This document shows, in pieces, positions 28,583 to 32,372 of a stretch of 64,000 bases of DNA. The notes beneath the pieces are model-generated. The model was given only the letters and a program-made list of their open reading frames with translations. It was not told the origin of the DNA and did not search any database. The translations under genes were made by a program, and so were the position numbers. The DNA comes from Bacteroidota bacterium (GTDB taxonomy: Bacteria; Bacteroidota; Bacteroidia; B-17B0; Aurantibacillaceae). The DNA is taken from positions 1-64,000 of the forward strand of contig JAUXZS010000002.1 of NCBI GenBank assembly GCA_030692515.1. Direction: 5' to 3'. Position 1 is the first letter of the stretch, and each line of letters starts with the position of its first letter.

Positions 28583-28945
28583 TTAGTTATTTAGTGCTCC
28601 TTGCTTTATCCAACTTTCAAGTTTGCTTATTTGACAATCAGTTAGAGGCGGCCCTGTTGAATATGAAGGAGGCATGCCGCCACCCGGCTTAAAACGACTA
28701 ACGAAATTCGACGTATTGTCAATTACACTTTTTAATGAGTTATGATCCGAAAAACTTTTATAACCACCTGTAACATGGCAACCAGAAAGAGCGCAAGATT
28801 GATTAATAAGTGGAACAATTTGTTTAGTGTAAGATATGTCTGTTGTACAGCTATCAATTTGTACAATAGGCGTTGGTTTACCTAAATCCTTTGTGCAAGA
28901 ACTAAAAACGGCAAGCGTAATTATAACTCCTAAAATTTTTTTCAC
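28583..28945 (-). CDS. Small lipoprotein with CX4CH haem-binding motif
   Basis: 120 residues, GTG start. A lipobox FSSC at 14-17 predicts lipid anchoring in the envelope. The core reads QSCALSGCHV: Cys51, Cys56 and His57 form a CX4CH haem-attachment motif, and GGGMPP supplies Met91 as a likely axial ligand. Two further cysteines (33 and 104) could pair. The end CQISKLESWIKQGALNN is typical of small Planctomycete-type cytochrome c domains. It shares this layout with the lipoprotein at 41.5 kb. An electron-carrier role is inferred. A terminator lies just upstream, and no promoter motif is clear in the short remaining gap. Confidence 0.72.
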   Translation of the reverse strand: MKKILGVIITLAVFSSCTKDLGKPTPIVQIDSCTTDISYTKQIVPLINQSCALSGCHVTGGYKSFSDHNSLKSVIDNTSNFVSRFKPGGGMPPSYSTGPPLTDCQISKLESWIKQGALNN

Positions 28946-29005: not shown

Positions 29006-30847
29006 TTAATCAATTATTAATTTTTTAGTAATGCTGTTATCACCATTGTCTAGTTTAACAAAATACATTCCTTTAAAATTTTCCGTTAAGTTAATATTAA
29101 TATTATTACTACCAATTTTGGAAGTAAAATTAGATGAATAAACTATCTTACCTAAAATATCATAAACAGTTACAGATATTTTATTTTCTGAATTAGTTGT
29201 TAATGACATATTAAAATTGCCGGTTGTTGAAGGATTTGGGAAAATAGAAACACTATTGTTTGATAAGTTATCAATTGATTCAATGCCAGTTAATAAACTA
29301 TAGCATTTAAATCCACGTGTAACTTGGCCTCTAATTTCACCACCTGCATTAGCTGTTGTATGTAAATTTATATAAATACTATCTTTATTAAACTGAGCTG
29401 AGTTTGATAATAAGAATGGAGTTGCATCATTACTTTTCCAATAACCAAAAGCACCATTGTTTGTATATATTGTAGAAAGATCATAAGCTACTCCTCCAGA
29501 TTGTCCAACTAATCCTTTATGAAAATGTATTCCTGCTGAAGTAACACCAGATGTAACTAACATATAATGCGCGTTATCTTGATCACGGTCTATTGATACC
29601 ATTCCAGATCCACGTCCAGCAGTTGAAACGCTTGGAACTTGCTGCGTACCATCCATAGAGAAGGTATATCCTTCGCGCATAACACGGTAAACTTGTCCAC
29701 GAATTTCGCCACCTGGATTTGCGGTAGTATGAATGTTTAAATAAACACCTCCACTTAACATACTATTAATAAACGAAGTAGAAACTGCAGTACCTGTTAC
29801 AATACCTGTAATTTTATTACCACTAATACCTGAAGAAATATCAACCGCAACGCCACCACTAATACCATATGCACCTAAATGGAAATGAGCAGAGTTAATT
29901 GCACCGCTTAACCCATTAGTGTAAACATTATAAAATAAGGTGTCAAATGTTGTATTTACTTTCACACTTGCAACACCTTTTGCACTTGTTGTAATTGCAG
30001 GAGTTTGTTGTGCTCCATCTATCCAAGCGTCAAACGCAATTTTATCATCCATTTTTAATTGAGCACGTATTTCACCACCTGGGTTAGCAGTTGTATGCAC
30101 GTTTAAATAAATGTTGCCTGCCATTAATGACGAAATAACACCTGCAGATGGAGTAAATACACCAACAATCGTATTTCCTACAATATAAGTAGCAAGGTCT
30201 TGCGCAACTGGTCCATTAACACCAACCGCACCTGTATGCAAGTGTGCCGAAGTAATTGCACCACTTAATCCATTTGTAACAACATAAAATCTTACTTGTC
30301 CTTGATGTTTTGAAACATTAAAAACTGCCCAGCCATTTGCTGATGTAGTAACCGCGGGTACCGACTGTGCACCATCAATTAATCCTGTAAATGCCATGTC
30401 AGACTCAAGGCTTATTTGTCCTCTTATTTCTCCACCTGGATTTGCAGTAGTATGCACATTAATGTAGGTTAGTCCCTTTAATAAACTAGACTTTAACGCA
30501 GACGTAAGAACAGTACCAGTTAAAGTAGCGCTTACTCTATTGCCAATAATAAAAGGCGTAAGATCAAATAAAACACCACCATTTACGCCAATTGCTCCAC
30601 TATGAATATGCATTGCTGTTGGGGCCGAAGTTAATCCATTAAAAGACATATTTATACAAAGTGTATCACGAGTGGAATTTAGCAATAAACTTGCTACTCC
30701 AGTTCCTGAATTTGTAAGTGCCGGCACTTGCTGTGCACCATCTAATCTTGCAGAAAGCAACATATGACTTCTAAGATGAGACGAAAAACCGCTAAAACTT
30801 GCAAGAGTTAAAGCAATCATCATAATTTTTCGAGTAATTTTTTTCAT
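29006..30847 (-). CDS. Four-CHRD-domain secreted protein with T9SS type A sorting domain
   Basis: 613 residues. A signal peptide lies within the first 25 residues. Four CHRD domains follow at roughly 30-147, 150-267, 270-386 and 390-510; each carries DGAQ(Q)xP, HxHxGxxGxxG and the xNxHTTANPGGEIRGQ end. CHRD occurs in chordin and in many bacterial exported proteins; its bacterial role is unknown. The last 75 residues (SIFPNPSTTGNFNMS to KKLIID) are a type A T9SS sorting domain, so it is exported across the outer membrane. It has its own terminator and is probably a single-gene unit. Confidence 0.9.
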   Translation of the reverse strand: MKKITRKIMMIALTLASFSGFSSHLRSHMLLSARLDGAQQVPALTNSGTGVASLLLNSTRDTLCINMSFNGLTSAPTAMHIHSGAIGVNGGVLFDLTPFIIGNRVSATLTGTVLTSALKSSLLKGLTYINVHTTANPGGEIRGQISLESDMAFTGLIDGAQSVPAVTTSANGWAVFNVSKHQGQVRFYVVTNGLSGAITSAHLHTGAVGVNGPVAQDLATYIVGNTIVGVFTPSAGVISSLMAGNIYLNVHTTANPGGEIRAQLKMDDKIAFDAWIDGAQQTPAITTSAKGVASVKVNTTFDTLFYNVYTNGLSGAINSAHFHLGAYGISGGVAVDISSGISGNKITGIVTGTAVSTSFINSMLSGGVYLNIHTTANPGGEIRGQVYRVMREGYTFSMDGTQQVPSVSTAGRGSGMVSIDRDQDNAHYMLVTSGVTSAGIHFHKGLVGQSGGVAYDLSTIYTNNGAFGYWKSNDATPFLLSNSAQFNKDSIYINLHTTANAGGEIRGQVTRGFKCYSLLTGIESIDNLSNNSVSIFPNPSTTGNFNMSLTTNSENKISVTVYDILGKIVYSSNFTSKIGSNNININLTENFKGMYFVKLDNGDNSITKKLIID

Positions 30848-31202: not shown

Positions 31203-31811
31203 ATGAATGTTTCAGACTACATACAATCTGGTATTTTAGAGATGTATCTTTTGGGCATTACTTCTTCTGCTGAAACAACAGAAGTTGAAGAAATGGCAAA
31301 TAAATATCCGATGATCCGTGCTGAAATTGATGCGTTAAGTAAGGATATTGAGTTGTATGCAAGTTTTCACGCTGTAAATCCTAGCCCAACTATTAAACCA
31401 TTTTTAATGGCTTCTATCGATTATTCTGAAAGAATAAAAAATGGAGAGACACCAAGTTTTCCTCCAATGTTAAATATTAATTCTAAAGTTGAAGATTTTG
31501 GCGAATGGTTAAATAGAAAAGATATTGTTCTACCTGATGACTTTACTGATTTTTATGCGAAAATAATCGGACACACTCAACAAATGGTAACCGCAGTGGT
31601 TTGGATTGGAAAAATGGCTCCAGAAGAAATTCACGATGATGAGCATGAGAAATTTTTAATACTTGAAGGAACTTGCGATATAATCGTAGAAAATAATGTT
31701 CACCATTTAAAAGCAGGAGATTTTTTCGAAATCCCACTTCATAAAACACATACAGTAAAAATAACATCAGACGTTCCGTGTAAAACTATTTTGCAAAGAA
31801 TGGCTGCTTAA
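31203..31811 (+). CDS. Predicted soluble anti-sigma factor with C-terminal cupin
   Basis: 202 residues, no signal peptide or membrane segment. Residues about 1-55 (YIQSGILEMYLLGITS...EVEEMANKYPMIRAEID) resemble the N-terminal sigma-binding helices of RskA-type anti-sigma factors in Bacteroidota. Residues about 120-200 are a cupin: IHDDEHEKFLILEG with His144, His148 and Glu149, then GDFFEIPLHKTH with His183, consistent with a metal site. The order sigma-binding helices then cupin is that of ChrR, but the zinc HxxxCxxC of ChrR is absent. The stop abuts the stop of a convergent ECF sigma gene (31812), the likely partner. Metal or oxidant sensing is inferred. Confidence 0.75.
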   Translation: MNVSDYIQSGILEMYLLGITSSAETTEVEEMANKYPMIRAEIDALSKDIELYASFHAVNPSPTIKPFLMASIDYSERIKNGETPSFPPMLNINSKVEDFGEWLNRKDIVLPDDFTDFYAKIIGHTQQMVTAVVWIGKMAPEEIHDDEHEKFLILEGTCDIIVENNVHHLKAGDFFEIPLHKTHTVKITSDVPCKTILQRMAA

Positions 31812-32372
31812 CTAACCTGTAGTTATTAATCTTTTTCTTAAAGTAATTAAAGCATTTCTATACTTTGTTTTTACAGTTCCAAGTGGGATTTGAAGTTTTT
31901 TAGATATTTCATCTTGTGTATAACCTTCAAAAAAAGCAAGATTTATTATTTCTAGTTGATCAACCTTTAATTCCGAAACAATTTTCTTTAACCCTATATT
32001 TTCGTAATTTGATTCTATTAAGAGCCCTGGCGTTTCTATTAGTAGATTTGAATCAAATGATAGGCTTTTCTTTTCAATTTTTCCATGTTTAGATCGTAAA
32101 TAATCAATTGCCGTATTCCGCATAATATTTAACATCCACGTAAATAGTCTTGATTTTTGAGCTTCGTAAAATTTAGATTTATTCCAAATCTTCATAAAAC
32201 CATCTTGTAATATATCTTCAGCTAGCTCATCATGTTTGACTATCTTTTTTATAACACCAAAAAGAGAAGGCGAAAAATAATCGTAAATTATTTCAAACTG
32301 CGTGGCATTGCCAGATAGTAGATGAGATACAAGTTCCTCTTCGGTATATTTTTTATTGGGCTTCAAATTCAA
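31812..32372 (-). CDS. ECF-family RNA polymerase sigma factor
   Basis: 186 residues. Region 2 is at about 22-85 (YDYFSPSLFGVIKKIV, DELAEDILQDGFMKIW, RLFTWMLNIMRNTAIDYLRS) and region 4 at about 130-180 (LAFFEGYTQDEISKKLQ, PLGTVKTKYRNAL). It directs polymerase to stress or envelope promoters. The start is a TTG (32370-32372). It is convergent, stop to stop, with the cupin anti-sigma candidate. TAAATTTA just upstream on the minus strand is one base off the -7 motif. Confidence 0.93.
   Translation of the reverse strand: MNLKPNKKYTEEELVSHLLSGNATQFEIIYDYFSPSLFGVIKKIVKHDELAEDILQDGFMKIWNKSKFYEAQKSRLFTWMLNIMRNTAIDYLRSKHGKIEKKSLSFDSNLLIETPGLLIESNYENIGLKKIVSELKVDQLEIINLAFFEGYTQDEISKKLQIPLGTVKTKYRNALITLRKRLITTG

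Follow-up and report, generated by a model that had tools for sequence, protein, structure and literature searches.

Background

Among the closest described systems is ChrR of Rhodobacter sphaeroides, the turnover of which is stimulated by singlet oxygen and the cupin ligands of which are His141, His143, Glu147 and His177 (PMC6852236). Class I anti-sigma domains have been reported beside 6% of the ECF sigma factors of Bacteroidetes, as against 32% over all phyla, and some 35% of the class I factors are considered likely to be soluble; about 72% of these carry a zinc motif, so that there is precedent for soluble anti-sigma factors that lack it (PMC7406223). Fragments of RsgI with XAA ends are ClpXP substrates with the exception of FAA, and since the FAA-ended RsgI2 is not degraded, an XAA end alone is insufficient (PMC12203970). 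RseA 1-108 ends in VAA (PMC8138137). A fusion of an RskA-type domain with a cupin is not among the soluble kinds of anti-sigma factor in the portion of PMC8999054 consulted, and our literature search found no description of this combination; papers elsewhere may describe it.

The window analyzed here is a stretch of 64,000 nucleotides from a member of the Bacteroidota (contig JAUXZS010000002.1). It encodes a protein that combines these two parts and abuts a sigma factor gene. Our reading is that this protein is probably the anti-sigma factor of the neighboring sigma factor, with the cupin as its sensor, and we place the probability of this core reading at about 0.72.

Genomes and loci compared

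The cupin protein and a family alignment of 20 orthologues (A1) were used as queries for searches of the class, the sample being 395 genomes out of a larger group. We mapped 50 places: 20 in the genus, 20 in other parts of the class and 10 in other parts of the family. One mapped place (G446) is cut by a contig edge and is omitted from the counts of 49 full-length relatives given below; G445 and G451, with cut or partial frames, are not among the mapped places. The co-occurrence tests and the identities leave species relatedness uncorrected. When contigs were scanned with the cupin protein, the sole match covered 30 residues, in a Bacteriovorax MAG, and was set aside.

A probable anti-sigma domain joined to a cupin

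The gene pair and the parts of the cupin protein are located as follows.

31203..31811, plus strand: RskA-type anti-sigma domain and cupin protein, 202 aa (ORF; Cupin_2 at residues 134-196, E=7e-12)
31203..31442, plus strand: predicted N-terminal anti-sigma domain, residues 1-80 (N-terminal homology to RskA_C proteins that are encoded in sigma operons; structure matches to RsiW, RslA, RskA and MucA)
31551..31808, plus strand: cupin barrel, residues 117-202, with candidate metal ligands E142, H144, E149 and H183, and C158 (conservation; PDB cupin matches)
31800..31808, plus strand: C-terminal Met-Ala-Ala, candidate ClpXP-type degron (Ala-Ala end in relatives; the genome's own tmRNA tag)
31812..32372, minus strand: ECF sigma factor of 186 aa, with TTG as start codon (Sigma70_r2 5.9e-13, Sigma70_r4 1.2e-9)

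The two genes meet stop to stop, with 0 bases between the TAA of the cupin gene (31809-31811, plus strand) and the TAG of the sigma gene (31812-31814, read on the minus strand). An earlier reading of the window, made from the sequence only, had described this arrangement with the cupin gene ending one base before the sigma gene; the ORF coordinates bear out the stop-to-stop adjacency, the wording of that reading standing for adjacent ends rather than a gap of one base. Both Sigma70_r2 and Sigma70_r4 are found above their cut-offs in the sigma protein and no region 3 model is among its matches, which is the domain composition of an ECF sigma factor. Its top NCBIfam model is SigK-like (7e-29, under the model's own cut-off), and it is the only sigma factor of its type in this genome, the next best paralogue being 27% identical.

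AlphaFold predicts five helices for residues 1-79 of the cupin protein (3-8, 11-16, 22-34, 36-56 and 64-79; mean pLDDT 90), with a pLDDT of 91.7 for the full-length protein. The class searches returned two main kinds of relatives, namely full-length ones and proteins of 260-320 aa that match at about positions 3-80 only, together with a minor third kind made up of a few cupins of 133-151 aa that match over the barrel only. For all 8 of the N-terminal-only relatives sampled, the gene immediately upstream encodes a sigma factor and has the same direction, and RskA_C (PF10099) is present in each of the three that were scanned. The cupin protein is 28-44% identical over some 80 residues to the N-termini of 8 RskA-type proteins, and a joint alignment gives a motif, I-x-SG-[IV]-[LI]-[ED], common to both. 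When the N-terminal domain was submitted to Foldseek, the top five matches were anti-sigma chains of RsiW and RslA with weak E-values (0.79 up) and RskA was found at rank 7, while the first four rows of VIA-align for the N-terminal model were RslA, RsiW, MucA and RskA (Z 6.5 to 4.8). When PDB sequences were searched with a profile of the domain, RskA (4nqw) came first, at a weak E=0.05; the match of the N-terminus to a 'putative anti-sigmaE' model (E=4e-4) is far under the cut-off of that model. The full-length model matched cupins and, at ranks 29 and 41, ChrR (2q1z).

The homology to RskA proteins encoded behind sigma genes supports the RskA-type N-terminus that had been proposed from the sequence, and by this evidence residues 1-80 are classed as a putative RskA-type class I anti-sigma domain. 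The protein itself falls outside the RskA family (PF10099): the domain scan found no match to RskA_C in it, and it has no membrane segment, the highest 19-residue Kyte-Doolittle mean being 0.86. The N-terminal domain also lacks the Cys/His zinc motif of ChrR and the ZAS anti-sigma domain, as the only cysteines of the protein are C158 and C193. The absence of a membrane segment and that of the zinc motif had been stated in the sequence-only reading, and both hold.

Conservation of the sigma partner

The gene next to that of the cupin protein is a sigma gene in 32 of the 49 full-length relatives, where it is upstream and co-directional in 28, downstream and co-directional in 1 and convergent in 3. 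Gaps in the upstream co-directional pairs range from -8 to +8. The remaining 17 relatives have no adjacent sigma gene. The sequence-only reading had named the lack of a conserved neighborhood in relatives as evidence against a sigma and anti-sigma pair; the neighborhood is conserved.

The two partners also occur together. Of 40 genomes of the genus, 23 contain the sigma factor and 22 the anti-sigma domain; both are present in 22, neither in 17 and the sigma factor alone in 1 (Fisher p 2e-10, species relatedness ignored). In the sigma-alone genome (G062), which is 81% complete, the sigma match begins at base 89 of its contig. All 20 cupin-bearing genomes of the genus contain the sigma factor, and in 10 of these, the present genome among them, no domain of this kind was detected beyond that of the cupin protein. 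An RskA-type domain accompanies the cupin protein in 9 of the 20, two genomes (G011 and G008) have the RskA-type domain only, and G029 has an extra domain fragment of 25 codons at a contig edge. Taken with the RskA homology and the adjacency in 32 of 49 relatives, this joint occurrence upholds the claim that the two proteins form a sigma/anti-sigma pair, and by sequence comparison we regard the pairing as well supported.

The cupin barrel as a candidate sensor

Cupins have a His-x-His motif. In a phmmer alignment to quercetin dioxygenase, E142 stands at the first His position of this motif, so that the site of the cupin protein follows the pattern E-x-H-x4-E plus His, compared with His/His/Glu/His in ChrR. 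E142, H144, E149 and H183, as well as G156 and C158, are invariant in all 49 full-length relatives, and C193 is kept in 40. The first reading had proposed candidate metal ligands in the cupin, and the invariance of the four residues supports this; a cupin domain is present, with a candidate site that differs from the ChrR ligand set. From this conservation and the comparison with known cupin sites, the barrel is likely to bind a metal.

A C-terminal tail that resembles the tmRNA tag

Ala-Ala is the C-terminus of 43 of the 49 full-length relatives, and the residue before it is V, I, L, M or A in 42 of these and N in the other; among the 6 that end differently, 2 have an adjacent sigma gene. The same end was found in 0 of 343 other ORFs (at least 150 aa, from the mapped loci in the genus and elsewhere in the class), 0 of 8 RskA-type proteins and 0 of 7 single-domain cupins read from the loci. 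ARAGORN gives GEDNSYAMAA as the tmRNA tag of this genome, which ends in MAA as the cupin protein does; the same tag was found in G003, and for the tmRNA of G033 the program gave a different frame. The genome also encodes ClpX. With a hydrophobic residue followed by Ala-Ala at its free C-terminus, the cupin protein has the end of a putative ClpXP substrate of the XAA type.

In the AlphaFold model the tail is part of the last strand (193-201), and the Ala-Ala may therefore be structural. One alternative builds on this: a ligand or metal would change the shape of the cupin reversibly and so release the anti-sigma factor, with the Ala-Ala no more than part of the last strand. The invariant metal-type site fits such a change, and the conservation of Q198 and R199 (46 and 47 of the 49 relatives) is as for a structural strand. 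It accounts less well for three relatives that keep Ala-Ala despite 2-3 residues inserted before the end (QRIMIAA, QRERLAA and QRLTLAA), for the 7 single-domain cupins that lack this end and for a tail that equals the end of the genome's own tmRNA tag. We consider reversible release a serious contender, somewhat short of even odds. Since the strand runs to residue 201, it is also conceivable that the tail may stay hidden until the barrel loosens.

The mechanism that we propose treats the cupin protein as a cytosolic class I anti-sigma factor, the RskA-type helices of which would hold the adjacent ECF sigma factor inactive. The cupin barrel, with its E142/H144/E149/H183 site and C158, would be the sensor, in place of the membrane-spanning RskA_C part. 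Loss of the metal or oxidation of the metal/cysteine site would loosen the barrel, which would free the Met-Ala-Ala at the end of the last strand; ClpXP or a similar protease could then degrade the anti-sigma factor, and the freed sigma factor would turn to its regulon, which may include the nearby CHRD gene. Metal binding, the redox signal, gated degradation and the regulon are all steps that we infer. The degradation step by itself we think less likely than not, and we hold with equal caution the idea of a fold-gated, self-destruct tail in which the metal or redox state of the cupin hides or exposes a tmRNA-tag-like C-terminus. If true, sensing and destruction by ClpXP would be joined in one soluble protein without an upstream protease. 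The system would then parallel the RseA route in the cytosol, and would do so in a phylum with few known ECF anti-sigma partners.

The CHRD gene and its surroundings

29006..30847, minus strand: protein with four CHRD domains and a type IX secretion tail (CHRD 5.6e-99, Por_Secre_tail)

In the window, the CHRD gene and the cupin gene are divergently oriented. CHRD was found in 6 of the 40 genus genomes, and all 6 belong to the 20 that carry the cupin protein (hypergeometric p 0.01), and in G029 it directly follows the sigma gene and is itself followed by an MbnP gene. The CHRD gene is a possible target of the sigma factor on this evidence. In G021 and G007, phmmer gave CHRD matches some 300 aa long close to the cupin gene; these were rejected, as the family search finds no CHRD domain in them. 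Beside the CHRD gene of the window, at 28583-28945, there is a lipoprotein-like ORF of 120 aa with a C-x4-CH stretch and no Pfam family.

Unlinked sigma factors and other clients of the cupin protein

Every one of the 12 genomes without an adjacent sigma gene that were tested holds a sigma factor with 47-60% identity; its gene is close to that of the cupin protein in G029 and lies elsewhere in the other 11. The test covered all places without an adjacent sigma gene but G239, G393, G151, G274 and G315b. The 11 unlinked sigma genes have an RskA-type neighbor in 7 cases and no anti-sigma domain adjoining in 4. The seven sigma-RskA pairs (L142, L144, L146, L147, L148, L150 and L151, in G385, G447, G001, G457, G031, G311 and G429, respectively) are thus found in genomes that also carry an unlinked cupin anti-sigma protein, and a pair of this sort together with the unlinked protein could possibly represent two inputs to one sigma factor. 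In G311, a second sigma gene (L152) is followed by a gene for a protein of 80 aa that consists of the anti-sigma domain alone.

More generally, the cupin protein may be a second, cytosolic input to sigma factors that have a membrane RskA partner, the neighboring sigma factor being one client. The seven genomes above, the RskA-type domains in 9 of the 20 cupin-bearing genus genomes and the interleaving of cupin-partner and RskA-partner sigma factors in the sigma tree would suit this view; the 10 genus genomes in which the cupin protein is the sole detected domain, this one included, speak against it, and we think it unlikely. The comparisons thus support a dedicated sigma/cupin pairing in those 10 genomes, with a second input possible elsewhere.

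The cupin protein is better conserved than the neighboring sigma factor, with a mean identity of 0.46 vs 0.32 (496 pairs, the cupin protein being higher in 415), or 0.43 vs 0.33 (300 pairs) when a clade of short sigma-like neighbors is left out, which hints at a further role. The proteins of this clade are 151-169 aa long, have a weak or undetected region 4 and overlap the cupin gene by 4 bases. They are encoded at the following places.

L035:8535-9005, L036:8344-8814, L037:8627-9097, L038:3071-3577: short sigma-like proteins
L039:8390-8863, L041:883-1335, L043:8638-9111: further short sigma-like proteins

The neighboring sigma is of this short kind in seven genomes of the genus, which contain a full sigma factor elsewhere, and the short proteins are perhaps decoys rather than sigma factors. 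Given its higher conservation and the shortness of some neighboring sigmas, the cupin protein may serve clients, or have roles, beyond the sigma factor next to it.

The convergent layout

The sequence-only reading had taken the convergent, abutting layout for a functional feature, in which overlapping antisense transcripts would tune the two genes. A zero-base gap, the lack of a terminator-like site at the cupin/sigma junction and a 4-base overlap in G003 would allow this. The pair is usually co-directional, however, with the sigma gene first (28 of 49), and the convergent cases are limited to this genome (0), G033 (+10) and G003 (-4), so that the spacing is not conserved. Folding of the junction in three genomes gave no stability above that of shuffles (z -0.99, 0.42, -0.88 and -0.12), and 10 of 48 other convergent neighbor pairs in the fetched loci are as close, with gaps of -10 to +10. 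We therefore rejected antisense tuning as a general explanation and consider it very improbable, though transcripts may overlap in this strain; the convergent layout looks incidental. Sigma-70-type promoter hexamers were not above shuffles in frequency.

The sigma factors of this genome, G033, G003 and G029 form one supported clade (100/99), and the cupin tree leaves the same four unresolved as a group. In G029 the sigma gene points towards the cupin gene, with the CHRD and MbnP genes lying between. Since the convergent cases are few, belong to one sigma clade and are unlike the usual co-directional pair, the layout looks derived, probably through a local rearrangement by which a co-directional pair became convergent at a late stage. 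In G022, an ORF of 166 aa that converges on the cupin gene was also considered and set aside, as it has no sigma-model match and no sigma-like sequence.

An enzymatic or chaperone function of the cupin protein, with an incidental link to the sigma factor, might be read from the higher conservation of the cupin half (0.50 vs 0.38 for the anti-sigma half) and from weak PDB matches to quercetin dioxygenase, and is highly unlikely in view of the joint presence and absence with the sigma factor and of the place in the operon, which is that of RskA proteins.

Comparison with known systems

Our results suggest that the sigma/anti-sigma system is real and conserved, and that the tail points to a release mechanism. 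The family would be a dedicated soluble sigma partner in part of the Bacteroidetes, in which one anti-sigma domain is joined either to the membrane part of RskA or to a cupin sensor, and a single-protein mechanism of sensing and degradation becomes directly testable.

Like ChrR (ECF11, SigE-ChrR), the cupin protein would be soluble, with N-terminal sigma-binding helices and a C-terminal cupin-like metal domain; unlike ChrR, it has an N-terminus homologous to RskA without the zinc Cys/His motif, and Glu142 in place of the first cupin His. With SigK-RskA (PF10099) it shares the predicted N-terminal anti-sigma domain and the operon slot, its RskA_C relatives being encoded just after a sigma gene of this type, whereas the RskA_C part and membrane segment are replaced by a cytosolic cupin, so that no intramembrane cleavage route is expected. 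With the ClpXP-degraded fragments of RseA and RsgI it shares a hydrophobic-Ala-Ala C-terminus; in those proteins this end arises by membrane proteolysis, whereas the cupin protein, which is soluble, has it natively, as encoded in the gene.
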